44,947 bases of DNA, from positions 32,587 to 77,533 of the forward strand of contig PBTY01000084.1 in assembly GCA_002729235.1 (NCBI GenBank), in the 5' to 3' direction. The translations under genes were made by a program, and so were the position numbers. Each line of letters starts with the position of its first letter. The stretch's first letter is position 1. Source of the stretch: Rickettsiales bacterium. GTDB taxonomy: Bacteria > Bacteroidota > Bacteroidia > Cytophagales > Cyclobacteriaceae. Shown one piece after another: positions 7,284 through 35,239 of this stretch. The notes under the pieces are model-generated. The model made no database searches. It was given only the letters and a program-made list of their open reading frames with translations, and had not been told where the DNA came from.

Positions 7284-7338
7284 AAAAAAGGCTCTGAAAC
7301 ATTTGCTTCAGAGCCTTTTGAGAGTAGTCCGTAGGGGA
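7284..7338 (-). repeat. Direct repeat copy 1: tRNA-Glu 3' end plus terminator (att-like)
   Basis: 55 bases identical to 35185-35239, at an offset of 27,901. The match extends to 59 of 60 from 7279. The copy contains the last 14 bases of tRNA-Glu (7325-7338, T-loop edge to discriminator), the short spacer and the whole terminator hairpin (7289-7316, 10-bp perfect stem, 8-base loop). Identity stops inside the T-loop (C at 7339 versus A at 35240), and the rest of the tRNA is absent. This is the expected remnant attachment site of an element integrated into a tRNA 3' end. Confidence 0.9.
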
Positions 7339-7410
7339 CTATTCAATATATTGTTTATCTGATAGTTACACTCTTTATGTAAAACATTTTGTAAATCAAA
7401 TCCACCTTAT

Positions 7411-8454
7411 TTATTGGCCTCTTCTCACTCTCTCAAGAAGTGCCTTTGATCGTTTGATGCCCTCTTCCTCAGATAAGGTCATACCTTCATACTCTACACC
7501 AATGTATCCGCTGAATCCTGCTGATTTCACAAGGTCTAACATTTTGGCATAATCGATAGTTGTTTCATTGCCATCCGCATCAAAATCATATGTCTTGGCA
7601 CTTAAGCCTTTGGCATATGGTAGAAGCTCCTTTACCCCCTGATATCTATCGTACTCGTTGGCACATCCATCACTTGCTTTTTCTATACAGAAGTTGCCAA
7701 AATCTGGTAATGTTCCGCAGTAGCTATTGTTAACTTTTTGAATGACCTCAGTTAACCATTGCCCATTAGAAGAGTATCCACCATGATTCTCCACAATCAC
7801 GTTAATTCCTTCTTTTGAAGCATAGTCCGTCAGTCTACCTATTCCATCGATCGCCGCATCTTTCACCTCGTCATATGTTCCCTGACCTGCAGCATTCACT
7901 CTTATTGAATGACAACCGAGATACTTGGCCGCATTCACCCACTTGTAATGGTTCTCAACTGCCTGAACTCGTTCAGTATCGTTTAGGTTTCCAAGATTGC
8001 CTTCCGCATCACACATAATCAGCAAATTCTTTACTCCTTCGCCCTTGCTTCTAGTGATTAATTCATTCAGATAGGACGTATCTTCTGCTTTGGTAAAAAA
8101 GAACTGATTCACATACTCTACCGCTTCTATACCAAATTTACGTTTGGCAATCACCGCGAAATCAATTGGATTAAGTTCCCCCTGATAAACATTGACTGCA
8201 CCTTCTCTCCTTATCTTTCTTAGCTCTTCTCTTGGCAATTCAAGACTTTTCCCATAGAAGGATCGATGTAGTGACCATTGAGCTAATGAGATCTCGAAAA
8301 AAGAATCATTATTATCCTCAGTAGTGATCATGGACTTATTGCTGGATTTGCTGGAACATGCATTGAGCAGAGATCCCAAACTCGCATATGCTGGAATTGC
8401 TACCAATCCCAACCCAAGATTTTTAATGTGTTTTCTTCGTGATTTATTACTCAT
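7411..8454 (-). CDS. Exported TIM-barrel sugar phosphate isomerase/epimerase-like protein
   Basis: AP-endonuclease-2-like TIM barrel of 347 residues, the family containing xylose isomerase-type epimerases and hydroxypyruvate isomerases. The N-terminus SRRKHIKNLGLG followed by a hydrophobic stretch and LLNAC (Cys33) resembles a Tat signal joined to a lipobox, so it is probably a membrane-anchored periplasmic lipoprotein. Likely metal ligands are Glu222 (VENHGG), Asp251 (LPDFGNF) and Glu321 (GVEYEG). The position where many relatives have a His ligand appears to be Ser285 (GLSAK). It is the last gene of the PUL, 28 bp after the DUF4038 gene. Its substrate is unknown; it may act on a released monosaccharide or keto-sugar. 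Confidence 0.8.
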   Translation of the reverse strand: MSNKSRRKHIKNLGLGLVAIPAYASLGSLLNACSSKSSNKSMITTEDNNDSFFEISLAQWSLHRSFYGKSLELPREELRKIRREGAVNVYQGELNPIDFAVIAKRKFGIEAVEYVNQFFFTKAEDTSYLNELITRSKGEGVKNLLIMCDAEGNLGNLNDTERVQAVENHYKWVNAAKYLGCHSIRVNAAGQGTYDEVKDAAIDGIGRLTDYASKEGINVIVENHGGYSSNGQWLTEVIQKVNNSYCGTLPDFGNFCIEKASDGCANEYDRYQGVKELLPYAKGLSAKTYDFDADGNETTIDYAKMLDLVKSAGFSGYIGVEYEGMTLSEEEGIKRSKALLERVRRGQ

Positions 8455-8482
8455 GATTTCTCGATACTTTTTTGATGTAGAA

Positions 8483-9844
8483 TTATTTCAGGCGTGAATG
8501 TCCCGGTTGTGAATAGTGATAGGCTTCATTATCAATTACCAATACCCAATCATTATCTCCCTCTGATTCTCCTGGGGGATCTAATTCAATGAGATCCAAT
8601 TCTGAGTTAATAATCACTACTTCAGAATTACCTGTTCGTGGATTATACCACCAACCAAGACTATTTCGCCACGGTATCTTTTGGGAGTTTATGATGATAT
8701 TCTCCCCTTGAGCCACATAGATGAATGCATATCCATTCCCCATCAAAGCTCGTGGTTTCTTCACTCCGTCTGTTACATTATTGCCGAATAAATACTGAGC
8801 GGGCTTGCGACCAATATGAGGCCTGGACATCATCAAATCCATTAGATATTTCATCTGAACAGCCCCAGAGTCAAGCACCTCCTTTTTCCAGTCTTCCAAA
8901 CCATCTTCCTTATTTCCGCCATTATAAAAATCCCAGACATGGACATGACCATACGTGTAGCCAGCTGCTCCAGCAAGTACGGTCCAATAAGCCAGTTGAC
9001 GAACATCGTGAGCATTGAAGACTCCCTCTGCACATTGTTGTTTCCAGGCAACACAATGGTCTTCATAATTGGGCTCGCCGTTCAAAGTCGGTTTGGTGGG
9101 TGTACGCATCAAATCCTCGTCCACCTGATCATCAGCTCTTAAATCCCTAAACTTGTGACTGCTTTGCTGCATGTTGAAATCAAGCCAATCCTTATTATGA
9201 AAATGATGTGAAGAAGGATCCCTATATCGAGGATGAAACGTGATCAAGGCATCCTCATCTTGATTGAATATCTCTCCGAATTCATTATACATCCCAGCCT
9301 CATTTCCAACTTCACGATCTCCGCCATTTACCCAAATAATATTCTCAAAGCTTTGGTATCGATTTGTAATCCATTGGGCATAATCACTAGTGGCTTCCAC
9401 ACCCCAGTACGAACCCCAGGCAGGCAAGATGGCCACATAGAGTCCATATTCCTTTGCCGTGTTGATTAACCAATCTACGTGAGACCAATATTTCTCGTTT
9501 GGACGCGTACAATCACCTCCCACAAACGGCACTTCCCCATATGCATTGACATCATTCCATTCTCTACTCCAACCCATCACTGCAACTGCCTGGATGACCG
9601 TAAACCCTTGAGACGCTCGTGTTCGGAAGTAATAATGAGCATCTTCCTGATTTAACTCCTGAAAAACACTCCAGCCAGTATCAGCCAGCCAAAACCAGTC
9701 AGTACCATCAGCTCTCTGAATTCTCAAGCCATCTTGAGAGATGCTTAACTCCCAATTTTCTTCTTTCTGCTGTCCAAAACTCCAGAAGCTCATTGAGCTT
9801 AAAAAAACGAAAATGATGGAACGTAAATAGTTCAATGAATTCAT
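8483..9844 (-). CDS. DUF4038-domain glycoside hydrolase (GH140-like)
   Basis: Secreted 453-residue protein with a cleavable signal peptide (ends near SFGQQ, 21-26) and a TIM barrel of the DUF4038 type. Family landmarks are WFWLADTGWSVFQELNQED (50-68), WVNGGDRE (171-178) and LNGEPNYED (254-262). Asp176 and Glu257 in the last two are the likely catalytic acids, by analogy with GH140 apiosidase. A small beta-rich C-terminal domain (about 360-450) resembles the putative collagen-binding domain that usually follows DUF4038. It overlaps the GH2 gene by 4 bases, so translation is probably coupled. GH140 itself removes apiose from pectin, but most DUF4038 proteins of marine PULs are untested, so the linkage cut here is unknown. 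Confidence 0.83.
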   Translation of the reverse strand: MNSLNYLRSIIFVFLSSMSFWSFGQQKEENWELSISQDGLRIQRADGTDWFWLADTGWSVFQELNQEDAHYYFRTRASQGFTVIQAVAVMGWSREWNDVNAYGEVPFVGGDCTRPNEKYWSHVDWLINTAKEYGLYVAILPAWGSYWGVEATSDYAQWITNRYQSFENIIWVNGGDREVGNEAGMYNEFGEIFNQDEDALITFHPRYRDPSSHHFHNKDWLDFNMQQSSHKFRDLRADDQVDEDLMRTPTKPTLNGEPNYEDHCVAWKQQCAEGVFNAHDVRQLAYWTVLAGAAGYTYGHVHVWDFYNGGNKEDGLEDWKKEVLDSGAVQMKYLMDLMMSRPHIGRKPAQYLFGNNVTDGVKKPRALMGNGYAFIYVAQGENIIINSQKIPWRNSLGWWYNPRTGNSEVVIINSELDLIELDPPGESEGDNDWVLVIDNEAYHYSQPGHSRLK

Positions 9845-12312
9845 TTTGTTAGTCTTAGTTTGACAACACCATCTTCCAAACCATTGGAATGCACGACTAC
9901 TTCAACTTCTCCATTTATCAGGGTGCTTTTTAAATACATTAAAGCCAATCCATTAAAAGTCTTTTTGCTAGCAGCCATGCCTGAGGTCAAATCCATCATG
10001 TCTCCATTTTCTACAGCCAGGACCTTTGCTGGCCCTTTCACTTCATAGGTAAAAGCCACGTTCGCATCTGGAACAAAATTCCCAAACTCATCTACCACCT
10101 TCACTGTGAGATGTGCTACTGAGCGGTTATCGGAAGATAGCACCGTTTTATCTGCGCTTAGTTGGATGGAATGAGGCTCCTTAGCCGTAGTATGATAGGT
10201 ACTGATAATGTCTCCCTGCTTTGTCTTTGCAACAGCCTCAATGGTTCCAGCCTCATAAGGCACATACCAAAGCAACCGAAGGTCATTTGCTGTATCTCGT
10301 TTGATCCCCAGAGATTTATCATTCAGAAACAGCTCAATTTCCTCACAATTGGAGTAAACTACTACTGGAATTTCTTTTCCTACTTTCCCAGGATGTGTCC
10401 AATGGGGAAGAATATGAACCATAGGTTTTTCAGTCCATACGCTCTGATAGAAATAATAGTGATCTTTTTTGAAGCCAGCCAGATCCAAAACTCCGCAATG
10501 CCATCCTCTATTTGGCCAGATATTTTCACCTAAATAATCAAAACCAGTCCACCGAAATTCTCCCATAAACCAATCAAACTGCGAAGTTTTCTTCCACTGA
10601 TCACGAGCTGATATTCTTACAGTAGCATTATCATAGGAGGAGAGATAATTGCTATCATAATCCGTGAACAATTCTTCTTCTGTCAAGTCAGGAATGGGAA
10701 CATATAATCCTTCTTTAGGTTCTTTCCCCATTGTCTGTGGTTCCCATGGCGCTGGAAAGTCCCTACCCCGCCACCATGTCTTTGTGCGGTATACTCCCCT
10801 GGTTTGCCAGGAATGTGGCACCTCCGTACCTACAATCGGCCAATCAGGATGCAGCTGATGTACTGTTTCCAATGTATCAGGAAACTCACCAACGCCATTA
10901 AATCCAGCAATATCTACGATATTGGCATCATGGCCTGCACCAATTGTTACAGCCCTGTTTTGATCCAGTTGCTTAATGGTTTGATATAAAAGATGCTCTA
11001 CACTATCCGATCTACCGCGCACCTCATTTCCAATACTCCACATAATCACACTCGGGTGATTGCGGTCTCTTTTTATGAAATCAGCTAGATCTTGTTCCCA
11101 CCAATCTTCAAAGTAGATTCCATAATCATAGGCCTCCTTTTTAATGTCCCATCCATCAAAAGGTTCGTCCATCACCATCATGCCCATACTGTCACACAAA
11201 GTGTAAAACTCAGGAGCAAAAGGATTATGAGACGTTCTTATGGCATTACAGCCCATGTCTTTCAGGAGCTGAATTCGTCTAACCCAAACATCCTCCGGAA
11301 CCGCTACACCGAGAGATCCGGCATCCTGATGCAAACAAACACCCTTAATTTTTTCTCTTTGGCCATTTAACCAAAAACCAGTCTTAGAGTCAAATGCAAG
11401 GGATCGAACTCCTACTTGAGTGGTGGCAACGTTCAGAACCTCATTTCCGTCTCGAACAGTTGTGATTACCTTATAGCGATAGGGGTTTTGCGGCGACCAC
11501 AACTCTGGACTCAAGACTTCACCTGCCATTTCAATAGTCCGTAATTCTCCTGATTCAATCTCAAAGTCCTTGTAGAATTCATGAACAATAGACCCGTCCT
11601 GTTTCACCAACTTTGCCTCTAAAATCAAACTTTTAGAGTACTCTGATTCGTTGGTCACTTCCGTTTGGATTGACATCATAGCCTTCGAGCTATCTACATC
11701 GGTAAAGGAAACATATGTCCCAGAAATTGGAATATGGATATTGTTTTTCACATCCAACCACACATGGCGATATATTCCTGCTCCGGTATACCATCGACCA
11801 CTTGGCAGCTTGCTATTATCCACTTTTACCAGAATAGTATTGGATCCCCTGTTGAGAAAAGGAGTAAGATCATAAGTAAATCCAATGTACCCATTAGGTC
11901 GATGCCCCAAATGATGTCCATTTACCCACACATCACTATTCATATATACCCCATCAAAAGTGAGCGAAACCAATTGATTCTGCCAGTCATCCGACCACTC
12001 CAAATCCTTTTCATACCAGCCGATTCCTCCTGGGTAGTACCCACCACTCATTCCAGATTTATTGTTCATTTCAGGTTCACCAGCTATGCTCCAGTCATGC
12101 GGAACATCAATCTGATCAAAATCGAGTTCTTTCAAATGTGGTATCTCCTGATTGTCAAAATCGCCAAGGTAAAACCGCCAATCAAAATCGAGGTTAATTC
12201 GCTGGGCAACGTGCTTGGTTGAAGTATCACAACTTGTAAGTAACAATCCAACCATCAGCGACATACCAGTGGTTAAATTGCGGATCAACTTTCCTTTATT
12301 CATACACCACAT
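9841..12312 (-). CDS. Glycoside hydrolase family 2 (probable beta-galactosidase)
   Basis: Exo-acting hydrolase of 823 residues with a lipoprotein signal (LLLTSC, Cys28). Order of domains: sugar-binding jelly roll (about 35-195), Ig-like domain (200-305), TIM barrel (310-620), a DUF4982-like domain and a C-terminal Ig-like module (about 720-820). The general acid/base is Glu430 in WSIGNEVRG; the nucleophile is probably Glu497 in IVGTEVPHS. This layout is typical of Bacteroidota beta-galactosidases, although GH2 also contains glucuronidases and mannosidases. Its start overlaps the stop of the preceding sulfatase by one base (TAATG at 12310-12314). An internal Met4 (12303) gives a cleaner signal peptide. 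Expected location is the periplasm or outer membrane. Confidence 0.9.
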   Translation of the reverse strand: MWCMNKGKLIRNLTTGMSLMVGLLLTSCDTSTKHVAQRINLDFDWRFYLGDFDNQEIPHLKELDFDQIDVPHDWSIAGEPEMNNKSGMSGGYYPGGIGWYEKDLEWSDDWQNQLVSLTFDGVYMNSDVWVNGHHLGHRPNGYIGFTYDLTPFLNRGSNTILVKVDNSKLPSGRWYTGAGIYRHVWLDVKNNIHIPISGTYVSFTDVDSSKAMMSIQTEVTNESEYSKSLILEAKLVKQDGSIVHEFYKDFEIESGELRTIEMAGEVLSPELWSPQNPYRYKVITTVRDGNEVLNVATTQVGVRSLAFDSKTGFWLNGQREKIKGVCLHQDAGSLGVAVPEDVWVRRIQLLKDMGCNAIRTSHNPFAPEFYTLCDSMGMMVMDEPFDGWDIKKEAYDYGIYFEDWWEQDLADFIKRDRNHPSVIMWSIGNEVRGRSDSVEHLLYQTIKQLDQNRAVTIGAGHDANIVDIAGFNGVGEFPDTLETVHQLHPDWPIVGTEVPHSWQTRGVYRTKTWWRGRDFPAPWEPQTMGKEPKEGLYVPIPDLTEEELFTDYDSNYLSSYDNATVRISARDQWKKTSQFDWFMGEFRWTGFDYLGENIWPNRGWHCGVLDLAGFKKDHYYFYQSVWTEKPMVHILPHWTHPGKVGKEIPVVVYSNCEEIELFLNDKSLGIKRDTANDLRLLWYVPYEAGTIEAVAKTKQGDIISTYHTTAKEPHSIQLSADKTVLSSDNRSVAHLTVKVVDEFGNFVPDANVAFTYEVKGPAKVLAVENGDMMDLTSGMAASKKTFNGLALMYLKSTLINGEVEVVVHSNGLEDGVVKLRLTK

Positions 12313-13763
12313 TATCGTTTCTCCAATTGATTTTCTACCAAAGTGACCCCCGCAAGATGAGCATCTCGCAACTCGGTAAGCTCTTTGATTACTTCAGGAT
12401 GGGCTTTAGCAATATTGAATTTCTCAGATGGGTCTTCATTGAGATTGAAAAGCAATGGCGTTTTATAATAGGTCTTACCATCACTATACTCCCCCTGTGT
12501 CACGAAATGGGCTTTAAAAGCACCCTTGCGTATCGCAAACACTTCTGTACCACGGTAATAAATAATGACATCTCTCTTGTTTTCACCCGTTCCTTTTAAT
12601 GCACCAGTCATATCAAACCCATCATATACTCTATCACCTGGCAAGTCGACACCAGCAAGCTGACAAAAAGTAGGCATCAAATCCATGGTATTACCCAATT
12701 CACTGACAACCCCCGGTTGTATGGTCTGAGGCCACCAAAAAATAGTCGGCTCCCGCATGCCACCCTCATAAGTTCCCCCTTTACCACCGCTCAGTAGTCC
12801 GGCGCTACCTCCATGCTGATCATAATTGAGCCAGGGTCCATTATCAGAAGTAAAGACCACCATGGTGTTTTCATCCAATCCACTTTCCTTAAGCTCTTTT
12901 AAAATTTGTCCAACGCTCCAATCCAACTCCTCGATGACATCTCCATAAATACCACGTTTGCTATGACCTTCGAACTCCGCTGATCGAAACAACGGCACGT
13001 GTGGCATAGAGTGAGCCAGGTATAGGAAGAAAGGGTTCTTCTGATTGTTCTTGATAAACTTGATAGCCTCCTCGGTATATCTCCTGGTGATTGTTCGCTG
13101 ATCAGCAGGACGTTCTATGATTTCCTCGTTATGCATCAATGGAACATTGAAATAATCCACTGTAGGATTCATATTGGCTTCATGAACATCACGCCCTCCT
13201 AACCTATCCATATCATTGCTGTAGGGTATACCAAAGTACTCGTCGAACCCATGTGCATTGGGTGTAAATTCAGGTAGATGTCCCAAATGCCACTTACCAA
13301 CACAAGCTGTAGCGTACCCTGCTCCCTTAAGGGCCTTCGCAATGGTCATCTCAGACTGAGGTAATCCGCCTTTTGAATTTGGAAATAAAACACGTCTATT
13401 GTCACTCACCATGCCATACCTCACAGGCAATCGACCTGTGAGTAACCCAGCTCTTGAAGGAGTACAAACTGAAGCCGCCACATAGAAATTAGTCCACTTC
13501 TGCCCCTCATACGCCATTTGGTCAAGGTTAGGAGTCATGATGGTAGGGTGTCCAAAGACACCTAAATCGCCATACCCCATGTCATCCACAAAAATGACAA
13601 TGAAATTAGGCTTTGCTTTTTCCTTTTCGCCACTTAAAGCTGTCAATGACATCAAGATGACTATGCCTAGTAACAGGAAACTAACAGGTGAAAACATGAA
13701 TCGTTGCGTATTCATTGTATTGGAATGTTTTGGTAGGTATGTCATAGAGTTCAGTGAATTCAT
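12312..13763 (-). CDS. Sulfatase, S1 family (first of the overlapping block from the left)
   Basis: Type I formylglycine-dependent sulfatase, expected to remove sulfate esters from the target glycan. Cys100 in SVCTPSRAGLLTG is the residue oxidised to formylglycine by a maturase encoded elsewhere. The metal site begins with VDDMGYGD (59-66), and FTSDNGPW carries later Asp/Asn ligands. Total 483 residues; the true start is probably Met17 (about 13715), giving a signal peptide from MNTQRFMFSPVSFLLLG. The gene overlaps the next sulfatase by 4 bases (ATGA, 13760-13763) and touches GH2. The sugar and sulfate position cannot be told from sequence alone. Confidence 0.93.
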   Translation of the reverse strand: MNSLNSMTYLPKHSNTMNTQRFMFSPVSFLLLGIVILMSLTALSGEKEKAKPNFIVIFVDDMGYGDLGVFGHPTIMTPNLDQMAYEGQKWTNFYVAASVCTPSRAGLLTGRLPVRYGMVSDNRRVLFPNSKGGLPQSEMTIAKALKGAGYATACVGKWHLGHLPEFTPNAHGFDEYFGIPYSNDMDRLGGRDVHEANMNPTVDYFNVPLMHNEEIIERPADQRTITRRYTEEAIKFIKNNQKNPFFLYLAHSMPHVPLFRSAEFEGHSKRGIYGDVIEELDWSVGQILKELKESGLDENTMVVFTSDNGPWLNYDQHGGSAGLLSGGKGGTYEGGMREPTIFWWPQTIQPGVVSELGNTMDLMPTFCQLAGVDLPGDRVYDGFDMTGALKGTGENKRDVIIYYRGTEVFAIRKGAFKAHFVTQGEYSDGKTYYKTPLLFNLNEDPSEKFNIAKAHPEVIKELTELRDAHLAGVTLVENQLEKR

Positions 13764-15265
13764 TGATTATTCTTCATTAAATCGGGATGTTTGGCTCGAA
13801 CCTTTCTATTATCAGGATCAAACTCTGGATTGGGCTTTGGAAATTCAGCGCCTACATCTTCACTCCAGGAGGTCAGTAAAGAAGCCAGTTGTTCAGCTTT
13901 TGCAGGATTAGAGTCAATCAGATTTTGTGTTTCGCTAATGTCATTTTTCAGGTTATATAGCTCCAAAGAACTATCCACCAGATTTCTTACCAGTTTCCAA
14001 TCTCCCTGTCGTACCGCACTGGATGGAACCCCATGGTGGTATACCGGGTAGTGCCAGTATAGCGCACGATCTGTCTCTGTAGATTCCGTGGTTAATTCTG
14101 GCAATATGCTTTTACCATCCAAAACCTGTTCTGAAAACGATGAATTGGAAACTTCAATCAAGGTTGGGAAAAAATCCACACTACTAATCAATGCATTAGA
14201 AACCTGGGATTGACGAATCTGCTTTGGCCACTTGACAATCAGTGGCTCCCTGATGCCTCCTTCATAAACCGTTCCCTTTTCGTCCCTAAGCGGGGTGTTT
14301 TCCGTCGCTACATACAGTAAGGAGTCGTTATCGTCTCGAACTAGATGGCGCTTATCTTCAACCACTACTAACCCTCGATTTCCTGCAGTTCTTAGCCCAC
14401 CATTGTCTGAATAGAATATCAATATGGTATTTTCATCCAACCCAAGCTCCTTTAATTTCCGGTTGATGCGTCCAACACTATTATCCAGATGCTCAATCAT
14501 CGCTGCATAGACCGGGTTACATGGATACCCTTCTACTGTTGGCTTATCAGCATATTTTCGAATCAGATCTTCTTCAGCGTCCAACACCAGATGCACATCA
14601 TAATGTGCCAGAAATAAAAAAAATGGTTGGTCCTTATTTTGCTCAATGAATTCAATCCCGAAATTGGTTAACGATTCGGACAAACGTTGAGTTGGTGTCA
14701 CTTCTCTAGGAGGATCAAACTTCGTGTTGTAATAATCCTTACCCACATTCGCTACATCAAATCCTTGATTTAATGGATGATGCTTTTGCTCATCACCCAA
14801 ATGCCATTTCCCAAAATAACCGGTCTTGTATCCTGCCAACTGCATCATTTCTCCAACAGTTTCAATATCCTCAGGGAGATATTGTGTTCGGTTTCGGGGG
14901 ACAATTACTTCTTCATAAGGCCGCCATTGACCTGGAATGTAATCTATGATTCCCACTCTTGCTGGATATTGTCCAGACATGATACTGGCCCTGGTTGGAG
15001 AACAAACTGGACAAGCTGCATAGGCATCTGTGAAACGAATACCCTCGGCAGCCAACGTATCGATGTTTGGTGCTTCATTGAACTGATTACCATAGACTGG
15101 CAGATCAGCCCAACCCAAATCATCCGCTAAAATAAAAACAACATTCGGGGGTTTATTTGCCTCTTGCGTCTCTGTTGTGGAGCATGAGCTCAATAGCAAT
15201 AATCCTTGTAAAAGGACCCAAAATTGCCCAATGGCATTAAGTCGATTTCTAACGCTTCTATTCAT
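13760..15265 (-). CDS. Sulfatase, S1 family (lipoprotein)
   Basis: 501-residue sulfatase with lipoprotein signal (LLLLSSC, Cys28) and catalytic motif CSPTRAS with Cys88. Metal-binding Asp residues appear in ILADDLGWAD; IFYSDNGGLR supplies the C-terminal-side ligands. The stretch GQYPARVGIIDYIPGQW after the active site resembles subfamilies that act on sulfated algal or host glycans, though I cannot assign one firmly. The gene overlaps the sulfatase upstream by 8 bases and the one downstream by 4 bases. It differs substantially from its three neighbours around the active site, so the block is not a recent tandem duplication; each enzyme probably removes a different sulfate. Confidence 0.93.
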   Translation of the reverse strand: MNRSVRNRLNAIGQFWVLLQGLLLLSSCSTTETQEANKPPNVVFILADDLGWADLPVYGNQFNEAPNIDTLAAEGIRFTDAYAACPVCSPTRASIMSGQYPARVGIIDYIPGQWRPYEEVIVPRNRTQYLPEDIETVGEMMQLAGYKTGYFGKWHLGDEQKHHPLNQGFDVANVGKDYYNTKFDPPREVTPTQRLSESLTNFGIEFIEQNKDQPFFLFLAHYDVHLVLDAEEDLIRKYADKPTVEGYPCNPVYAAMIEHLDNSVGRINRKLKELGLDENTILIFYSDNGGLRTAGNRGLVVVEDKRHLVRDDNDSLLYVATENTPLRDEKGTVYEGGIREPLIVKWPKQIRQSQVSNALISSVDFFPTLIEVSNSSFSEQVLDGKSILPELTTESTETDRALYWHYPVYHHGVPSSAVRQGDWKLVRNLVDSSLELYNLKNDISETQNLIDSNPAKAEQLASLLTSWSEDVGAEFPKPNPEFDPDNRKVRAKHPDLMKNNQ

Positions 15266-24231: not shown

Positions 24232-24245
24232 GGTTTCTTAATGCT

Positions 24246-26272: not shown

Positions 26273-26298
26273 GTCCCTCCATTAAGAAATGAAGGGAC
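26273..26298 (-). promoter_or_regulatory. Hairpin in the SusD to beta-helix gap
   Basis: GTCCCT-C-CATT and AATG-A-AGGGAC form a stem of 10 pairs with one C/A mismatch around an AAGA loop, 20 bp after the SusD stop and within the 161-bp gap before the enzyme genes. No T-run follows on the minus strand, so it is more likely an mRNA-processing or stability element than a full terminator. Confidence 0.4.
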
Positions 26299-26317
26299 TA
26301 AAATTCAATCGTAAGGG

Positions 26318-27988
26318 TTAATCCCAATTAGGATTTTGCACTAGATTTTCATTCAATGAAATTTCATTTAATGGTAGGGGCCACAAATAATGTTTCGTTG
26401 CATCAAACGTTCTGTTTGATGCCGGTTCAACAATGATGACACTATCTCCATCCAGGTTCAACTCTGATGGTGTGATGGAGGTATACTCTGCATTGAAAAA
26501 TCTTACTCCCTTTATTGCTTGAGGGAGTAGATCTTCTGCAGTCTTCCATCTGATCAAATCATCATATCTAAATCCTTCCATTGCTAGTTCCACACGTCTT
26601 TCTCTTCTAATTTCCTCTTTCATATTGAGGCCATTAGCAGTTACGAAAGCGTTGGTAAGGGAAGGCATTTGCACGCGGGCTCTTAATAAATTGATTGAAG
26701 CATTTAATTCACTGTCTGTGATTGTTCCATTCAATTCGTATGTAGCCTCTGCATAATTCAGCAACACCTCTGCATATCGCATGATCATAAGATCCAGATG
26801 GCGTTGGTTATCGATTTCGAAAAATTTCTCCACATGATATCCAGTTAATGCAACGATTTGTGGTGTATAGGCTACATTATCCAGGAAGTACATATCACCA
26901 GGCTTTACTATCGTGCCATCCAATCTTGGATCTCTATCTTGAAACTCTGAACTAACATTTTGCTGACCTTGATACAATGGAGACTGATCAATAGGCAGTC
27001 CATCTGTACACAAATAATCGTCTACTAGCGAACGTGTGGCTGCTAATTCACCATTGCTTACTTGCTGTGATGTATATATAATGTTAACAGAGTTCTCCAT
27101 ATTGAACCCATAGATATAAGCCCACATTGTTTCAGGATTGCTTGAACCTTCTCCTTCACCTTTGAATAAGACATCATAACTATCAACACCATAAGCATCG
27201 AAAAGTGAGTATTCACCACTATTCATCACCTCTAATGCAGCTGCTCTGGCAATCCCGAGATGGTAGTCCTCATCGTGATTGATGTTTCCAGTACCATGAT
27301 ACTTTAATCTGGTACCTTCGTACAATCCCACTCTTGATTTCATGGCCATAGCAGTTCCGCTACTAACTCTCCCATAATCAACACCCTCAGATCTAAGTGG
27401 AAGATTGTCGGCGGCATAATCCAGATCTTCATAAACCTGATCTAGCACAACCTCTCTTGCAGTTCGTGCACTGAAAAGCTCCGCATCATCCGTATCAAGT
27501 GTCTTTAATATCAACGGCACATCACCGTATCGTCTCACCAAATCAAAATACCCGTAAGCTCGAAAATACCTTGCCTCTGCTAGAGAAACCCTTACCAGGG
27601 ATTCACTGATACCAGTTTCTTCTGCTTTTTCAAGTATTTTGTTGGCTGCTCGAATTAATGTATAATTATCTGCCCATGTCTGATATATCTGATCAGTCAT
27701 GAATGTTCCATTTCCAGTTGGAAGAAAGGTTCCGTTACTAACTGGATTAAATGCGAGTCCTACTGCATTATCCGACATGTTATCAGCATAAAGCTGATAA
27801 TCTTCATCGTACCATTCGCGATGCGATGCGCGATACAGATAATTTGCCGCCTGTTCAAAATCATTTTCTGTCTGCCAGTATACTGCATCAGTAAGGTCTG
27901 ACTCTGGAAATCGATCCAAATCGCAAGACCAGAAAGCAGCAGCTAGAAATGTCATCCAAGTATATTTTTTGAAAGTATTCATTTTCAT
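26318..27988 (-). CDS. SusD/RagB-family glycan-binding lipoprotein
   Basis: Outer-membrane surface lipoprotein of 556 residues (FWSC, Cys22) that acts as the lid of the SusC transporter and captures oligosaccharides. Visible traits are DLDRFPESDLTDAVYWQTEN after the lipobox, TPR-like alpha-helical repeats (ILEKAEETGISESLVRVSLAEARYFRAYGYFDLVRRYGD region) and the RERRVELAMEGFRYDDLIRW motif typical of SusD C-terminal halves. It is 24 bp downstream of SusC. Which sugar it binds is not evident. Confidence 0.95.
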   Translation of the reverse strand: MKMNTFKKYTWMTFLAAAFWSCDLDRFPESDLTDAVYWQTENDFEQAANYLYRASHREWYDEDYQLYADNMSDNAVGLAFNPVSNGTFLPTGNGTFMTDQIYQTWADNYTLIRAANKILEKAEETGISESLVRVSLAEARYFRAYGYFDLVRRYGDVPLILKTLDTDDAELFSARTAREVVLDQVYEDLDYAADNLPLRSEGVDYGRVSSGTAMAMKSRVGLYEGTRLKYHGTGNINHDEDYHLGIARAAALEVMNSGEYSLFDAYGVDSYDVLFKGEGEGSSNPETMWAYIYGFNMENSVNIIYTSQQVSNGELAATRSLVDDYLCTDGLPIDQSPLYQGQQNVSSEFQDRDPRLDGTIVKPGDMYFLDNVAYTPQIVALTGYHVEKFFEIDNQRHLDLMIMRYAEVLLNYAEATYELNGTITDSELNASINLLRARVQMPSLTNAFVTANGLNMKEEIRRERRVELAMEGFRYDDLIRWKTAEDLLPQAIKGVRFFNAEYTSITPSELNLDGDSVIIVEPASNRTFDATKHYLWPLPLNEISLNENLVQNPNWD

Positions 27989-28012
27989 GTAATGTTTTAA
28001 GTCCTACAGATT

Positions 28013-31000
28013 TTAGAATGTTAGGTTTACCCCAAACGTGTACTTACGTGTGAATGGATACATAAACGTAGCGCCATTAGGCATCTCTGGATCGATGAAA
28101 TCAAAGGTTTTGGTCATTTCCCATAGATCTCTTCCAGCAAAGTAGAACCGCAATCTCTCTATACCGACTCTATTGACAATAGCCGACGGAATAGTGTATC
28201 CAATTTGAAGATCTTTCAATCTTACATAAGCCGCATTTTGCACCCACTTCTCACTAGGTAAATAATTATGCTCACCTCGTGCATATAGTCTTGGCCAGAA
28301 GGCATCTGGATTATCCTCAGACCAGTAATCCATGTGGTGTCTTTGTGGATGAAGCCATGGACGGAAGTAAGGCATGATTGCAAAATTGTCCATCATAGCA
28401 GTACGTTTCCCAACACCTTGCAGGAATATCATGAAATCGAAATTATTCCAGTTGAAGCCACCACGAACACCAAAATTATATCTCGGGTTGGTGTTACCAA
28501 GATTGACTAAATCCCCATGATCTTCTAAAGTTTGTGCTCCACTATTGATTACATCATCCCCATTCAGATCCACATAAACCAAATCGCCAGGCCCTGTTTT
28601 ACCATTTTGAAATGCATGCTCATCCACCTCTGTCTGAGTCTGGAATAATCCATCAGACTTATACCCCCAAATCGTATTGACTGGTAGGCCTTGAATGTAG
28701 GCATTCGTACCAGGAGAGATCACATCAGCTCCAAGATATTTAACCAGTTCATTTTGATTATCTGAAAGGTTGGCAGACACCCAGTAATTGAAGTTTTTGG
28801 TATTGCTATGTCTCCAGGTAGCACTTAATTCCCACCCCCAGCTCTTCAATTCACCAGCATTCAATACATTAACGTCTACACCAAGTACCGACGGATAAGT
28901 TACCGGAGCAAGCATATCCTTATTTCGTTTCACAAAATAATCTCCAGTAATGCTCAATTTGTCATCAAGCAATCCAAGATCAAACCCGATATCTGAAGAT
29001 TCAACAGTCTCCCATGAAAGGGACTCAGAAGCAAGGTTTCCCTGAAATACGTATTGTGCTCTCTGCTCAGCATCACTTAGTATTAGCTGATCAGCTACAT
29101 TTAGAGTGGAGATAAATCCATAGTTCCCCAGCACGTTTGCATTACCCAGCTGTCCTTTTGATGCTCGAATCTTGAACTCTGAGATAAACGGCACATCAAA
29201 CCATGATTCTTCACTTATCCTCCAACCAACTGATGCGGATGGGAATAAACGATATCGGTCAGATGGTGCAAGTTTTGAACTTCCATCATATCTGAAATTA
29301 GCTTCTACAAGATATCGCTCCTTAAAGTTGTAGGTCACACGTCCGAATACTGACTGAAATGCATTGGTCAACACATTATCACCCAAAACAATCCCATCAT
29401 TTGATGCCCAATTGAAGTCAGCAAGATTTGGATTTACAAGAGCCTGCGCCTCTGCACTGAAAAATTCTCTTCTAAAATCCTGGTGAGAATACCCTGCCAG
29501 TACATAAAAGTTATGATTTTGAGCAAACGTTCTTTTATAGTCAATTAAAGCTTGTAATTCTTTAAATGAAGATTTCGTTTGATCCTTATAGATACTATTG
29601 TGTGCAATCACTGGAGTATCTTCTAAGGTACCATCCACGTTGTGTTCATAAATTGGTTTTTCATGAATAACACTGTTGTTAAAATTAGCATCAGTCACAC
29701 CAATTAACCGTAATCTCAAGCCGTCAACAAAATTTTCAATAGTCAACTGTGAATTAACACGGATATTATTCTGATCTCTTTCATCAAGCCCCACATCATA
29801 GATATGATCTAGAAGTCTATTTCTCGCATCAAACCCTCCCATACGATTCCCATAGGTATAGTATCCATTAGGATCGTACAAAGGAGATACTCCAGGGCTT
29901 TGGAAAATATCAGAGAACAAGGCATTTCTGGACTCCAGTCCATTTCCACTCTGAGTTAACCTGGTAGTACCGGCTGGCTTCTCTATCACATTCCTTGAGT
30001 ATGACAGATTATTAGAAAATGAGATATAGTCATTGATTTTAGTATCCAGGTTTAATCTTCCTGTATACTTTTCATTGTTGTCGTATCCAATTTTAAGAAT
30101 ACCATCATTTTTATAATAAGTCCCTGAAAGTCGATAAGTGATTTTATCAGATCCACCTGAAAGAGACACATTATGTGATTGGATTGGTGTGAAATTTTTC
30201 AGAGCTACATCTACATCATCATAGTTGCCATAGTATAAGTATTGGTTTGGATTATCTGGATCTATCTCATATAAGATATTTGGATCCCTTAGCTTCGTTA
30301 AAATTTCTTCGCTAACCACTGCATTACCACCAGCATTAATTGTTGCTACATTTAATGCTTCTGCGATTTCGTAAGAATTGAGTCTTTCAGGTAATCTAGC
30401 AGCTTTGGAGAAGCTGTAGTAGGAATTGTAATCCACCTGAATCTTACCTTTTTGACCACCCTTGGTTGTAACAAGAATTACACCTCCAGCAGCTTTGGCA
30501 CCATAGATTGACGCAGCGGATGCATCCTTAAGGACAGAGATAGATTCAATGTCTTCAGGACGCACATCTTCAAGCGATCCTTCAATACCATCTACTAATA
30601 TTAAAACAGGGTTGTTATTAACTGATGTTAGGCCCCGAATTTGAATATTAAACTCTTCGTCTCCAGGAGATCCACTGGACTTAGTTACTGTTACTCCTGG
30701 CATAAAACCTTGCAATGCATCTGCTGCACCAACCGCAGGTCTATTTACCAGATCTTCACCTTCTACTACCGAAACAGCTCCGGTCAGGTTCACCTTCTTT
30801 TGAGTGCCATAACCTACTACTACAACTTCATCCAACTGTTCCTGATCCATATCCAGCTGGATCTCAATAGATGTTCTGTTGTTAACCGCAACATTCATTG
30901 GTTTATAACCTACAAACGATACGATAAGAGTTGCATCTTCTGGGCATGACAATCTAAACTTGCCCTCCACGTCTGTGGTTGTTCCCTCATTGGTCCCTTG

Positions 31001-31474
31001 TATGATAATGGTCGCACCTGGTAATGGTTCTCCATTTTCATCCAAAACCACACCACTCACATCAATATTATTGATTATAGTCACCGAAACGTTCTCTACA
31101 GCCTGATTTTTATGCAGTTTGTTAACACTAATGTTATTGTTGACCTGTCTGAATTCTAGCTTATTGTTTCGTGATAATTCTAAAAGGACTTCTTCAACAG
31201 AGGCATTGCTCACATTTAAATTAACAGGCTCTGATGCTTCAATCTTTTCCCAGCTCACACTAAATCTAAACTGAGTTTGTTGTTCAATTAACTCGAAAGC
31301 CTCTTTCAACGAAGCTTTCTCCAACTTAAGGTTTACCCTTACTTCTCGAACGCTTTTAATTTGAGCAGTGCTTTCATTTGCCAGCACCGTGTCCAAGGTA
31401 ATGGATATAACGAAAAAGACATATAGGGTCAACTTAGACATGAGTAGTACTGTCTTAGTAAAATTGTTTTTCAT
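28013..31474 (-). CDS. SusC/RagA-family TonB-dependent oligosaccharide transporter with STN domain
   Basis: Complete 1153-residue outer-membrane transporter. Order: signal peptide (to about 33), STN domain (45-118), carboxypeptidase-regulatory-like domain (137-208), TonB-box-like DEVVVVGYG (215-223), plug (225-340; SVLKDASAASIYGAKAAGGV), then a 22-stranded barrel ending in the aromatic-terminated FGVNLTF. The STN domain, together with the upstream FecR and sigma genes, indicates that ligand binding also triggers expression of the PUL. It pairs with SusD 24 bp downstream and lies 139 bp below FecR. Confidence 0.96.
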   Translation of the reverse strand: MKNNFTKTVLLMSKLTLYVFFVISITLDTVLANESTAQIKSVREVRVNLKLEKASLKEAFELIEQQTQFRFSVSWEKIEASEPVNLNVSNASVEEVLLELSRNNKLEFRQVNNNISVNKLHKNQAVENVSVTIINNIDVSGVVLDENGEPLPGATIIIQGTNEGTTTDVEGKFRLSCPEDATLIVSFVGYKPMNVAVNNRTSIEIQLDMDQEQLDEVVVVGYGTQKKVNLTGAVSVVEGEDLVNRPAVGAADALQGFMPGVTVTKSSGSPGDEEFNIQIRGLTSVNNNPVLILVDGIEGSLEDVRPEDIESISVLKDASAASIYGAKAAGGVILVTTKGGQKGKIQVDYNSYYSFSKAARLPERLNSYEIAEALNVATINAGGNAVVSEEILTKLRDPNILYEIDPDNPNQYLYYGNYDDVDVALKNFTPIQSHNVSLSGGSDKITYRLSGTYYKNDGILKIGYDNNEKYTGRLNLDTKINDYISFSNNLSYSRNVIEKPAGTTRLTQSGNGLESRNALFSDIFQSPGVSPLYDPNGYYTYGNRMGGFDARNRLLDHIYDVGLDERDQNNIRVNSQLTIENFVDGLRLRLIGVTDANFNNSVIHEKPIYEHNVDGTLEDTPVIAHNSIYKDQTKSSFKELQALIDYKRTFAQNHNFYVLAGYSHQDFRREFFSAEAQALVNPNLADFNWASNDGIVLGDNVLTNAFQSVFGRVTYNFKERYLVEANFRYDGSSKLAPSDRYRLFPSASVGWRISEESWFDVPFISEFKIRASKGQLGNANVLGNYGFISTLNVADQLILSDAEQRAQYVFQGNLASESLSWETVESSDIGFDLGLLDDKLSITGDYFVKRNKDMLAPVTYPSVLGVDVNVLNAGELKSWGWELSATWRHSNTKNFNYWVSANLSDNQNELVKYLGADVISPGTNAYIQGLPVNTIWGYKSDGLFQTQTEVDEHAFQNGKTGPGDLVYVDLNGDDVINSGAQTLEDHGDLVNLGNTNPRYNFGVRGGFNWNNFDFMIFLQGVGKRTAMMDNFAIMPYFRPWLHPQRHHMDYWSEDNPDAFWPRLYARGEHNYLPSEKWVQNAAYVRLKDLQIGYTIPSAIVNRVGIERLRFYFAGRDLWEMTKTFDFIDPEMPNGATFMYPFTRKYTFGVNLTF

Positions 31475-31526
31475 ATATTTGGTTAGTTAAATATTGTTTC
31501 ACAAAAGCACAGGTGTGGCAAGGTCG

Positions 31527-31583
31527 AAGATGACACATCTTGGCTTATCGATATTTAATCTTGGGGTCGGCTACTTGCCGGCC
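31527..31583 (-). promoter_or_regulatory. Hairpins in the island FecR-SusC leader
   Basis: Two stems lie in the 139-bp gap ahead of SusC: AAGATG/CATCTT (31527-31532 with 31536-31541) and GGTCGGC/GCCGGCC (31565-31571 with 31577-31583, one G-T pair). The T-rich run beside the second is on the plus-strand side, so on the SusC message it is not a standard terminator. Like the leader at 1288-1344, it may tune SusC against FecR. Function inferred. Confidence 0.35.
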
Positions 31584-31613
31584 TTTTTACTTTTTAGGAG
31601 GTCATTTCATAGG

Positions 31614-32636
31614 TTATTTGAATTTTAATTTTACATTTCTTTTATCAATTGTGTATTCCATATTCATGGAATGACTCATTGTATTTAAAATATTACTTAA
31701 GTATTCGTCTTTGTATTCAGAGCTAAAACTCAACCCCTGATACTTACCATCTAGTTGGATTTCAACTCCATACCAATCTTCTAATTTATTCACCACCTCG
31801 GTTATTGGTGTTTGATCAAAAAGAAGTACACCTTGAGTCCAGGCAATTTCATTCAAATCTGTAATCTCGGATTTCTGACTAAGTCCTGAATTGGCATTAT
31901 ACTCAACCTTCTCATATGGATCCAGCAATCGATGATCCGCTGGATTAGACTCCTCATGAACCAATATCTTTCCTTCAACCAATGTGACTGAGATTGATTC
32001 TCCTTTAGAATTCACATTAAAAGATGTTCCTAAAGCCTGGGTATAAATATTAGCTGATTTAACAATAAAGGGATTTTCAGGATTTTTCTCAACCTCAAAG
32101 TAGGCTTCTCCTGTTAGCTCAATAAATCGGTTATCAGAAAAATCTGAGTAGTACTTAATAGAACTATTGGCATTTAGATGCACTGAGCTACCATCAGCCA
32201 AATGAATTACCGATTTTTGACCTTTCGGATTTTCCTTGATGATTGTCTCAACTTTAACAGCAACATCATTGACTCCTGGACTAGGACTATTTTTAATTAG
32301 AATTATACTGCCAAAAACAAGTATCAATGCAATGGTAGCTGCTACAGCATACCATTGTCTATACCATGACGGGCCAGGCTCACTTGAATGATGCTTCTCC
32401 GAACCTAATATAGACTTGAGAAGATCACTACGCTCTTCATAGCTCACTTGCTCTGGTTCAGAGTAATTCAAAGACAGAATAATTTCTCTTGCCTTTAGTA
32501 CCTGAACCTTCTTTTCAGGATGAAGCTCTATCCAGTGTCTCCAAAACTCATCAGAACCAGACGTTGGACTTAAAACCCAGTCTCTGAATTCTTGACTCGC
32601 TAAAAAATCTTCAATATCAAATTGCTCGTAGCTCAT
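31614..32636 (-). CDS. FecR-family anti-sigma factor of the PUL
   Basis: 340-residue single-pass membrane protein: cytoplasmic N-terminus (1-93), membrane helix about 94-114 (YAVAATIALILVFGSIILI), periplasmic FecR domain (about 130-225; FIELTGEAYFEVEKNPENPF) and C-terminal DUF4974-like domain (ITEVVNKLEDWYGVEIQLDG). It sits 141 bp after the sigma gene and 139 bp before SusC. It is expected to keep the sigma factor inactive until the SusC STN domain signals substrate. The general architecture matches the FecR at 1446-2444, but the sequences are well diverged, so the two systems should not cross-talk readily. Confidence 0.93.
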   Translation of the reverse strand: MSYEQFDIEDFLASQEFRDWVLSPTSGSDEFWRHWIELHPEKKVQVLKAREIILSLNYSEPEQVSYEERSDLLKSILGSEKHHSSEPGPSWYRQWYAVAATIALILVFGSIILIKNSPSPGVNDVAVKVETIIKENPKGQKSVIHLADGSSVHLNANSSIKYYSDFSDNRFIELTGEAYFEVEKNPENPFIVKSANIYTQALGTSFNVNSKGESISVTLVEGKILVHEESNPADHRLLDPYEKVEYNANSGLSQKSEITDLNEIAWTQGVLLFDQTPITEVVNKLEDWYGVEIQLDGKYQGLSFSSEYKDEYLSNILNTMSHSMNMEYTIDKRNVKLKFK

Positions 32637-32777
32637 TAAATAGTTGGCGTTCTTACTATTAAGACTATCTAGAAGCTAAAAGAACATCACCCGGAGCCCA
32701 TTATTTTACAAAAATTATAATATTCACATTCATTATAGAATATTTATAAATTAATCTCAACAAAAAAGGCTAATTGA

Positions 32778-33410
32778 TTAAATATTATCAAAACGCTCTT
32801 TAATCTCTTTCAACGCACGATAGATGAGATTACGCGCTGCTTTGACGCTACCAAAATTCATTATTTCACTGATCTCTTCGTAGCTAAGCTGATTGTAAAA
32901 GAAAAAATGCATTGCCTCTCTTTGTCTGGAAGGCAGTGTAGCAATTATCTGAGTTATTTTATTAAGTTGATCCTCAGTGATCTGACGATCAATCAGCAGC
33001 GTTTCAAATGATGGAATAACATGGAAGTCATGGGTTTGATCATTGTACTCTACCAGTGGCATCTTTGATCGCTTGTTGTAATCATCAATCATCAAATTTC
33101 TCAGACCTTTGATGAGAAATGCCTTAATTGAACTCACTTCAGGAAGTCGTGCACGATTTCGTCTTAACTTTATAAAAAAGTCCTGAATAAAGTCCTTACA
33201 GGAATCACTATCGGGGTTTAACTGCTTGGCGTAGTTAAAAAGAAGCTGAAAATAGGTGTGATAAACTTCGACGAATGCGGACTCGTTTTCTGATCGGAAG
33301 GCCTCCCACAACTCAACGTTGTTACCCCAATTAGATTGAGGCTTACTCTCCTCTTTTCTATTTGAGTCACTCCGCTTAAAGTCATTATTGTCTTTGGAGG
33401 CAGAAAACAT
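32778..33410 (-). CDS. ECF-type RNA polymerase sigma-70 factor of the PUL
   Basis: 210-residue sigma factor. A polar N-terminal extension (1-30) precedes region 2 (ESAFVEVYHTYFQLLFNYAK to IKAFLIKGLRNLMIDDYNKR) and region 4 (LPSRQREAMHFFFYNQLSYE with the helix-turn-helix after it). It starts with ATG at 33408-33410. It should drive FecR, SusC/SusD and the enzyme genes downstream on the same strand. Carried inside the direct repeats, it makes the island self-regulating. The 146-bp AT-rich gap upstream shows no perfect housekeeping promoter. Confidence 0.93.
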   Translation of the reverse strand: MFSASKDNNDFKRSDSNRKEESKPQSNWGNNVELWEAFRSENESAFVEVYHTYFQLLFNYAKQLNPDSDSCKDFIQDFFIKLRRNRARLPEVSSIKAFLIKGLRNLMIDDYNKRSKMPLVEYNDQTHDFHVIPSFETLLIDRQITEDQLNKITQIIATLPSRQREAMHFFFYNQLSYEEISEIMNFGSVKAARNLIYRALKEIKERFDNI

Positions 33411-33556
33411 GAATTAAATATCTAGTAAAGTTAGGTTGATCTAAGAATCATAAAATAACATATTTATAATTAGATAAGCAAATATTATTAATATCATATA
33501 TTTAGGCCGTTACTAGCCACATACCAAGATACGTAGAAATGAGAGTGGTATAGAAA

Positions 33557-35107
33557 TTACTGCATGACACTTTCTAACTGCTGCTCCATGTATGCTAAGG
33601 TATCTGAATATATACCAGCAAGATTTTCCTTCTCTTGAGGGTCCTTTAAAAGGCTATAAAGCTGTGGATCTCCGCTCAAACCTGTTCTCACTTTTTTATA
33701 TTCCAACCAGGCAGGCGTCGGTCTCTCGAACGGTTTAATGTATTTCCAATGTTTCATCCTTAAAGCCAAAGAGAATCCTTCTTCCAAAAGAAATTCTCTA
33801 CCTATCTGGGTGTGCCCAAGCCAGGCCTCCAAATAATCCTCGCTATCCATTTTACTACTTGTTAGCAAGGGTTGATTAACTAATGATGCCAATGATGCCA
33901 TTAGATCGACCTGGCTCAATAAGGCATCACTTGTTCTGCTTTCAATAACTCCTGGCCATGAAACAATGGTAGGAACACGAGTAGCGCCTTCCAGCATGCT
34001 ATACTTACCACCTGAAAACATTCCTGCCGGATGGTGATCACCCAACAATTCCTCCGCTTGATCGATGTACCCGTCATCTAAAATTGGCCCGTTATCACTA
34101 CTAAATATGATGAGCGTATTGGTTAGTAAATCTTCCTCGTTCAGATATTTCAAGAGCTCACCTACACACCAGTCCATTTGAGCAATCGCATCACCTCTTG
34201 GCCCCATGGTACTTTCACCAACGAATTGTTCATTAGGCACTCTTGGTACATGGATATCATGAAATGCCCAATAAAGAAAAAAGGGTTTCTCCTCCGATTC
34301 AGTTATGAATGTTTTAGCCTGATTGATTAATACGAATGGAAAGTCTTCATCCTTCCACAAGGCACTCTCAGCTCCCTTCATAAAACCTATTCTACTAATC
34401 CCATTAATGATCGAATTGTCATGACCTTTGCTTGGATGCATTGTTAATAATTCTGGCTCTTCTTCACCAACAGGATAGCCACCCAGATCTTCCTCATAGC
34501 TTACAAAAAGTGAATCCCCTTCTGCCAGCCCAACCACCTCTCCATTCTGCACAAACACGCATGGAACTCTATCCCCAGTGGCGGGAATTAAAAAACTATA
34601 ATCAAACCCAATTTCATTTGGCCCTGGGGTTATTTTTTGATTCCAGTTGATATTTCCATCACCTAAACCCAAGTGCCATTTACCTACTACCCCAGTAAAA
34701 TATCCGGCTTTTTGAAGGACTCCCGGAAGTGTCTCATAATCCTTTTTAATTATTAGACCGGCATCCCCAGGCAGGATTGCAGCATTATCTCGAAATGCAT
34801 ATCGGCCTGTAAGCAAGGAGTATCTAGAGGGTGTACATGTCGCAGCGGTGCAATGAGCATCTGTGAAGTTGACACCACCAGCCGCAAGTCGATCGATATT
34901 AGGTGTCTCGACTCCTACAGCTCCATTAACGCCAATATCTCCGTATCCTAAATCGTCAGCATAGATAATGATGATGTTGGGCTTCTTTGGAGAATTTTGT
35001 TTGCAAGAACTAAAAAGGATTGATCCAGCTAAACAAAAGACCATTAGACTAAGTGGGTATTTCATTCTCATAAATTGGGTAAATCTATCTACCCATAAGA
35101 CGGTCAA
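33557..35107 (-). CDS. Sulfatase, S1 family (lipoprotein, first gene of the island)
   Basis: 516-residue sulfatase. Met13 or Met15 gives the natural start of a lipoprotein signal (LFSSC, Cys35); the first 12 residues as listed are probably untranslated. Catalytic Cys91 is in ATCTPSRYSLLTGRYAFRDN; the metal site has YADDLGYGD and IFSSDNGPIL. The stretch AAILPGDAGLIIKKDYETLP just after the active site sets it apart from the four sulfatases at 12.3-18.3 kb. It is separated from those by the sigma/FecR/Sus genes and lies nearest the tRNA, 146 bp ahead of the sigma gene, so it may be transcribed with the regulators. Confidence 0.93.
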   Translation of the reverse strand: MTVLWVDRFTQFMRMKYPLSLMVFCLAGSILFSSCKQNSPKKPNIIIIYADDLGYGDIGVNGAVGVETPNIDRLAAGGVNFTDAHCTAATCTPSRYSLLTGRYAFRDNAAILPGDAGLIIKKDYETLPGVLQKAGYFTGVVGKWHLGLGDGNINWNQKITPGPNEIGFDYSFLIPATGDRVPCVFVQNGEVVGLAEGDSLFVSYEEDLGGYPVGEEEPELLTMHPSKGHDNSIINGISRIGFMKGAESALWKDEDFPFVLINQAKTFITESEEKPFFLYWAFHDIHVPRVPNEQFVGESTMGPRGDAIAQMDWCVGELLKYLNEEDLLTNTLIIFSSDNGPILDDGYIDQAEELLGDHHPAGMFSGGKYSMLEGATRVPTIVSWPGVIESRTSDALLSQVDLMASLASLVNQPLLTSSKMDSEDYLEAWLGHTQIGREFLLEEGFSLALRMKHWKYIKPFERPTPAWLEYKKVRTGLSGDPQLYSLLKDPQEKENLAGIYSDTLAYMEQQLESVMQ

Positions 35108-35184
35108 TACAGTGCAAACAACATCACTAAAAATGATCTTTTAATCGAAGAGAGGTATTAGAAAGAAAATGGAGGCAATAAACG

Positions 35185-35239
35185 AAAAAAGGCTCTGAAA
35201 CATTTGCTTCAGAGCCTTTTGAGAGTAGTCCGTAGGGGA
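35185..35239 (-). repeat. Direct repeat copy 2: tRNA-Glu 3' end and terminator (att-like)
   Basis: Identical over 55 bases to 7284-7338. This copy is joined to the intact tRNA gene, overlapping its last 14 bases (35226-35239), and includes its terminator. Confidence 0.92.
35187..35217 (-). terminator. Intrinsic terminator of tRNA-Glu
   Basis: Perfect 10-bp stem AGGCTCTGAA/TTCAGAGCCT (35190-35199 with 35208-35217) with an 8-base loop, followed on the minus strand by six T. It lies 8 bp past the tRNA 3' end. The same hairpin is duplicated at 7289-7316. Confidence 0.88.

Follow-up and report, generated by a model that had tools for sequence, protein, structure and literature searches.

CIMEs, exemplified by the islands related to ICESt1, are described as having att-like borders, no integration or transfer genes, and relatives in tandem (PMC5704250). 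Among the ssrA islands of Dehalococcoides, 15 of 31 were reported without an integration module, and their authors suggested possible cis-mobilization (PMC3146451). In gut Bacteroidetes, a survey placed 47 PULs on mobile elements (PMC6907783).

The exchange of PULs among Bacteroidota is known, and the route by which whole loci without mobility genes enter a genome is mostly unclear. No description of integrase-less PUL islands at tRNA genes was found in the titles and abstract openings of open-access papers, which leaves their absence from print unproven. Herein, such an island is analyzed within a stretch of 44,947 nucleotides (the window) and compared across six genomes, namely the window genome (G000) and five congeners (G001-G005), of which G002 is M. 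pacificum MRN461 and G004 is Marinoscillum sp. MSM7. That the window genome is a Marinoscillum follows from its tRNA-adjacent M16 peptidase, which shares 92% identity with the M. pacificum MRN461 protein and 80% with the MSM7 protein. We consider it reasonably probable that the PUL reached the 3' end of tRNA-Glu on an arm-bearing element, through site-specific recombination, and is now a CIME-like island.

A direct repeat at the 3' end of tRNA-Glu

Positions 7284-7338 and 35185-35239 of the window are identical in 55 of 55 bases, as an earlier note on this DNA had observed. When the comparison is extended leftward by 5 bases, 59 of 60 are identical (60 nt, 98%). The chance expectation for such repeats within the window is about 5e-24. 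The target gene, tRNA-Glu(TTC), was called by ARAGORN at 35225-35297 on the minus strand. Each repeat copy contains the terminator hairpin, which is strong in the right copy, and the last 15 bases of the tRNA, and it ends at the edge of the T-loop. The earlier note was right about the tRNA, the terminator and the break at the T-loop; its count of 14 tRNA bases is changed to 15 because the ARAGORN tRNA starts at 35225. An insertion at a tRNA 3' end with a direct repeat is what characterizes a tRNA-targeted genomic island, and both are present here. A repeat scattered over the genome was ruled out, with the first 32 repeat bases matching only these two positions at up to 3 mismatches in a search of the 6.55-Mb genome.

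The cargo is a single PUL

The 27,846 bases between the repeats hold 16 main ORFs, all on the minus strand and all with PUL functions by Pfam (16/16), which bears out the single-strand glycan-degradation locus claimed earlier. The largest intergenic gap among them is 161 bp. The enzymes are an isomerase-like (xylose isomerase-like) TIM barrel protein (7411-8454), an apiosidase-like glycoside hydrolase (8483-9844), a GH2 protein (9841-12312) whose nearest solved relatives include beta-galactosidases, a GH31 protein (18346-19938) whose closest solved relatives are GH31 alpha-galactosidases, and five sulfatases. The sulfatases lie at 12312-13763 (nearest solved relatives arylsulfatases), 13760-15265, 15258-16781, 16768-18339 and 33557-35107 (closest to S1_15 sulfatases). 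Three beta-helix proteins follow the GH31 gene: one RHGA/epimerase-like (19935-22229) and two with CBM96 (22249-24231 and 24246-26156). The remaining genes encode SusD (26318-27988), a SusC-type TonB-dependent receptor (28013-31474), a FecR anti-sigma protein (31614-32636) and an ECF sigma factor (32778-33410). The island therefore holds a SusC/SusD pair, glycan enzymes and a regulator, which together define a PUL.

Four enzymes were compared with solved relatives, and galactose-containing sulfated glycans were indicated; for the beta-helix protein, the solved relatives were weak only. The cargo is predicted to import and degrade a polysaccharide that is sulfated and contains galactose, and any exact substrate would be a guess. 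The cargo would be turned on via the ECF sigma/FecR pair. Such control is common for many SusC/D loci, and the neighboring locus at 1-3007 also carries an ECF sigma/FecR pair; the earlier note had called a nearly pure cargo island with its own sigma/FecR control unusual.

A donor of the PUL was sought via the 764-aa RHGA/epimerase-like beta-helix protein and was not found among family genomes, phylum genomes or plasmid records. At E 1e-60, the only genome with the protein was that of the window, both among 196 family genomes and among 395 phylum genomes, and no plasmid record contained it. When 19,971 of the 27,846 island bases were compared as DNA with the congeners, only short stretches matched (up to 458 bp, 67-91% identical). 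The G+C content, 41.1% against comparison values of 39.1 and 40.3%, gives no sign of foreign origin.

The left end is shared with three islands of MSM7

The presumed crossover core, GTAGTCCGTAGGGGA, lies at 7324-7338 within the left repeat. The core and the next bases form an inverted repeat, TAGTCC-GTAGG-GGACTA. Inverted-repeat cores are typical of tyrosine recombinases, and we infer that the enzyme was of this type. Read inward from the left repeat, the sequence is GGACTATTC, of which the first bases are within the repeat, followed about 40 bases further by an arm-like motif, TGTAAAACATTTTGTAAA, at 7378-7395 on the plus strand. This motif is presumed to be an integrase arm site and may bind the integrase. 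Positions 7339-7398 form the element end that is conserved with three islands of MSM7.

The same arrangement of terminator, GTAGTCCGTAGGG, NACTATTC and arm is present in MSM7 at C157:29.6 kb, C157:43.8 kb and C231:19.8 kb, the arm at C157:43.8 kb being the most divergent. All three are truncated tRNA-Glu ends beside unrelated cargo. Alignment of the four ends, the window's and the three of MSM7, gives invariant blocks over about 75 bases. Each MSM7 junction has a different terminator, whereas the two terminators of the window are identical.

The cargo of the MSM7 islands was scanned with Pfam for 7 of 17 listed ORFs in locus A, 12 of 16 in island B, 10 of 32 in region C and 1 of 4 in region D. 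Island B (14 kb) is enclosed by two ends; in place of PUL enzymes, its scanned ORFs (12 of 16) encode pirin, DJ-1-family proteins, a TonB receptor and an AraC regulator, so a PUL is not the only kind of cargo. Locus A adjoins B and contains GH92 mannosidases, sulfatases and GH2. Region C, bounded by the C231 end, consists of more than 60 kb of genes on one strand, and its scanned ORFs (10 of 32) include sulfatases, GH2, SusC/D and a hybrid regulator. The contigs bearing A, B and C are unjoined, and the three would form a single array at the tRNA.

The specificity of the end was measured in several genome sets. A genus search with a 13-bp core gave 11 exact places, which are 6 complete tRNA-Glu genes and 5 truncated copies, and 1 match in the reversed control. 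One truncated copy lies on a contig of congener G003 other than that of its tRNA-adjacent integrase; congener G001 has no exact core, its tRNA-Glu differing within the core. The arm motif at up to one mismatch occurs at 4 places in the six Marinoscillum genomes, all 4 near a core (within about 130 bp). These are three of the four aligned ends and a place on MSM7 contig C104, 105 bp from a complete tRNA. At two mismatches, no excess was seen in the six genomes (10 matches in total against 12 in the reversed control). Similarly, the end pattern at 0-1 mismatch gave 4 places among 196 genomes, all in Marinoscillum, and at up to 2 mismatches gave 9 places against about 21 reversed-control matches, again no excess. 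Among the 2-mismatch places, L165 (G069) and L167 (G137) show a terminator-like hairpin and a core by eye.

When the MSM7 C231 end was used as the query against 291 genomes of the order, the window was found at E 6.4e-14 and the next best match at 5.6e-5. Matches at E up to 0.1 were present in 126 of the 291 genomes, and all but the window genome were treated as noise. MSM7 itself was not listed in this search, and the sample of 291 seems to have missed it.

Integrase genes and the right arm

No integrase was found by Pfam on the 16 main ORFs of the island, antisense ORFs shorter than 165 aa being left out. Recombinase, relaxase and conjugation families likewise gave 0 matches among these ORFs. 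The island accordingly lacks the integrase, relaxase or conjugation genes of its own that an ICE or IME carries, and its 16 main ORFs agree with a CIME in having no integration or transfer genes. The tyrosine integrase family PF00589 has no match on the contig of the window (C85) or on the MSM7 contigs that bear the ends; elsewhere in the window genome it has 21 places.

A right arm was searched for with a matrix built on five motif copies, which score 24-28. The best score at the right end of the window island was 7.7, and scores at MSM7 B and D were about 5, so that no right arm was found in the window island, B or D. The att-like borders show a core repeat on both sides and an arm-like motif on the left, the right arm being the part of a CIME border that was not found.

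These results bear on whether the island is a living non-autonomous element, moved in trans by an integrase encoded elsewhere, with the MSM7 islands as its sisters. We regard this as unlikely. It would account for integrase-less islands of unrelated cargo having a left end in common and for the sharp 55/55 repeat, and it could draw on the 21 PF00589 places. It is opposed by the missing right arm, here and in MSM7 B and D, by six genomes in which no integrase gene lies close to the arm motif, and by the viral contigs, in which the element end and arm patterns gave 0 matches each. No helper or parent element was identified in the six genomes. Two candidate proteins of the window genome (C89 and C30) are 45-47% identical to one protein of MSM7, and nothing links either to the tRNA-Glu site. 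The integrase comparison covered the 41 ORFs that remained after a motif filter, leaving out G000 C17, C36, C103, C78 and one C33 place, G002 C31, and some ORFs of other genomes.

Occupancy of the site in congeners

The tRNA-Glu lies near the GAPDH gene in all six genomes, and what lies downstream of it differs. In M. pacificum, an alginate-lyase PUL follows a tandem pair of complete tRNA-Glu genes; G005 has a GntR gene and a SusC/D locus; G001 has a serine recombinase ORF; and G003 has a 410-aa tyrosine integrase with an arm-binding domain, 70 bp from the corresponding tRNA. The MSM7 contig breaks off at a distance of 205 bp from the tRNA. These differing occupants indicate that the site is an insertion hotspot. 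PULs at the site are weak evidence alone, because PULs are frequent in such genomes.

In four of the five congeners, the sequence continues uninterrupted past the tRNA and lacks the PUL of the window; the fifth, MSM7, has its contig edge there. The PUL was not found elsewhere in MSM7, either with the beta-helix protein or with the 19,971 of 27,846 island bases as DNA. The earlier note had named two results that would speak against its reading, the same PUL throughout close relatives and a repeat scattered over the genome; neither was found, the PUL being missing at the site in four congeners and the first 32 repeat bases matching only at their two places.

The earlier note had also proposed that relatives be searched for an empty site, and part of one was found. 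In M. pacificum, the homologue of window positions 7205-7338 runs into a complete tRNA-Glu. The outer left flank at 7205-7283 is homologous to sequence downstream of the second M. pacificum tRNA-Glu, and for bases 7234-7283 none of 2000 shuffles was as good. This flank joins a complete tRNA there, as an empty site would; nothing left of 7205 matches in 18 kb of M. pacificum sequence.

The left flank is variable PUL DNA itself. It starts a second PUL-like locus (ECF sigma, FecR and SusC-type receptor, 1-3007), and it carries an MCP gene whose sensor half is unmatched in the other members of the six-genome set, where matches at E up to 1e-60 begin at residue 339 or later. The claim that both flanks are unrelated chromosomal genes does not hold for this side.

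A hotspot without element-borne entry would arise if PULs were swapped by homologous recombination in the flanks and the repeat were a fossil of an older, unrelated integration. Unrelated cargo at the corresponding congener sites beside conserved right-side genes would fit such swapping, as would an island in which no integrase was found. The left flanks, however, are not common to the compared genomes and hence offer little left-side homology, and the MSM7 contig with successive ends 14 kb apart and different terminators needs repeated site-specific insertion. We consider swapping improbable, the least likely of the readings considered here.

The right border and the tandem tRNA-Glu genes

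The two tRNA-Glu genes of M. pacificum suggest another origin of the repeat, in which its copies lay downstream of two tRNA-Glu genes in tandem and are not attL and attR of one element. The second gene would have taken in an element, whose right end and integrase were later deleted together with that tRNA, so that two terminators now enclose the PUL. The terminators of the complete M. pacificum pair are nearly identical, and the identical terminators of the window, set against those that differ at each MSM7 junction, are what such a pair would leave behind. The missing right arm also fits. A weak likeness to the G005 sequence flanking tRNA-Glu is seen in the 22 bases beside the right repeat (scores as good came from 12 of 2000 shuffles and from 2 of 1108 island windows), which again favors a tandem origin. 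Against it, none of the three M. pacificum flanks is like the 50 bases of the right border (shuffles scoring as well numbered 719, 465 and 934 of 2000). Other congeners have a single tRNA-Glu at the site, and M. pacificum may be alone in having a tandem pair. A tandem-gene origin is possible, and we hold it to be the lesser chance beside insertion of the PUL on an arm-bearing element.

Discussion

The main support for entry on an arm-bearing element is the left end common to the window and three MSM7 islands. The 410-aa integrase beside the G003 tRNA and the part of an empty site in M. pacificum also speak for it. Several observations weigh against it: the right arm is missing, the terminators are identical, the right border is weakly G005-like, no helper integrase was identified, and the G+C content is unremarkable. 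In the proposed mechanism, the PUL would enter the 3' end of tRNA-Glu via site-specific recombination at the core of about 15 bp, from an element with arm sites for a tyrosine integrase at its ends. Today's remnant would be a CIME-like cargo island, its integrase gene and right arm now absent. Elements of this kind would also have been inserted repeatedly at tRNA-Glu in the MSM7 lineage, with unrelated cargo and a common left end.

The mobile-island interpretation of the earlier note thus survives as a site-specific insertion at the tRNA-Glu 3' end and is not supported as an intact element, no integrase gene and no right arm having been found. The island is probably decayed and CIME-like, the integrase having been lost or being located elsewhere. 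A decayed island would fit the identical terminators and the right border at least as well as an intact element. Entry on an arm-bearing element and the tandem-gene origin agree on past integrase action at the tRNA and on an island that now seems immobile alone.

A bolder proposal, which we put forward as speculation with the odds against it, is that Marinoscillum harbors integrase-less cassettes, mostly whole PULs with a common end of about 75 bp, that are serially inserted at tRNA-Glu by a helper integrase. If true, tRNA-Glu would act as a capture site, like that of an integron, for complete pathways of glycan degradation. With the conserved end common to unrelated loci as a sequence handle, one could search for a helper integrase and for more cargo islands of a kind that escapes surveys built on the presence of an integrase.

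Comparison with known systems

The island resembles CIMEs as described: its borders at an integration target are att-like, it lacks genes for integration or transfer, and it has tandem relatives. It differs from them in having no identified parent ICE, an incomplete right att and a whole PUL as cargo (PMC5704250). The PUL elements of gut Bacteroidetes similarly carry SusC/SusD loci as chromosomal mobile-element cargo. The islands in the account of that survey have an integrase or transposase or are related to prophages or ICEs, whereas the window island has none of these (PMC6907783). The integron cassette arrays called CALINs are also integrase-less and are described as movable in trans; they consist of attC cassettes, whereas a tRNA core and arm-like sites are found here, on islands that range from 14 kb to over 60 kb (PMC11389934). 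What appears to be added by the present locus is one conserved tRNA-Glu end, with no integrase found, beside unrelated cargo that is mostly for glycan degradation.

By analogy, the ssrA islands of Dehalococcoides may be regarded as the nearest published parallel found. Their target is a tmRNA gene, their known module has serine recombinases, and their cargo is reductive dehalogenases, in all of which they differ from the island described here. Both are nevertheless tandem cargo islands at one RNA gene with direct repeats of its 3' end, without an integration module (in Dehalococcoides, 15 of the 31), and with extra conservation beside the repeat (PMC3146451).

Recombinase genes and tRNA-Glu sites in Marinoscillum

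At tRNA-Glu, the Marinoscillum genomes show two classes of recombinase, since the tRNA-Glu gene of genome G001 is overlapped by the end of a serine recombinase ORF (locus L057, 10152-11748). In genome G003, which has a 410-aa tyrosine integrase gene 70 bp from its tRNA-Glu, a truncated copy of the tRNA-Glu core was found at the start of contig C92, following a terminator-like hairpin (locus L236, 207-219). This truncated core may mark where the element that carries the G003 integrase ends on its other side. The tRNA-Glu locus of M. pacificum (G002; L053, 17780-18640) is a small array of two complete tandem genes and a degenerate third. Two copies of the core also lie within this array, followed by ACGACC..., which is a different type of end.

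In the genome of the window itself, tyrosine-recombinase genes lie adjacent in pairs on contigs C96, C74, and C11 (loci L193, L164, and L194, respectively). The pairs score equally across the contigs, a pattern such as repeated elements would give.

Flanks of the island

In the left flank, the gene at 4550-6964 encodes a phosphonate-type periplasmic binding domain fused to a methyl-accepting chemotaxis-type protein. In the genus comparison, the signalling half alone was matched in other Marinoscillum genomes. Close to the right end of the window, the stretch beyond the succinate-CoA-ligase-like gene contains two direct copies (44267-44859), each of about 320 bp, with parts that are 75-92% alike.
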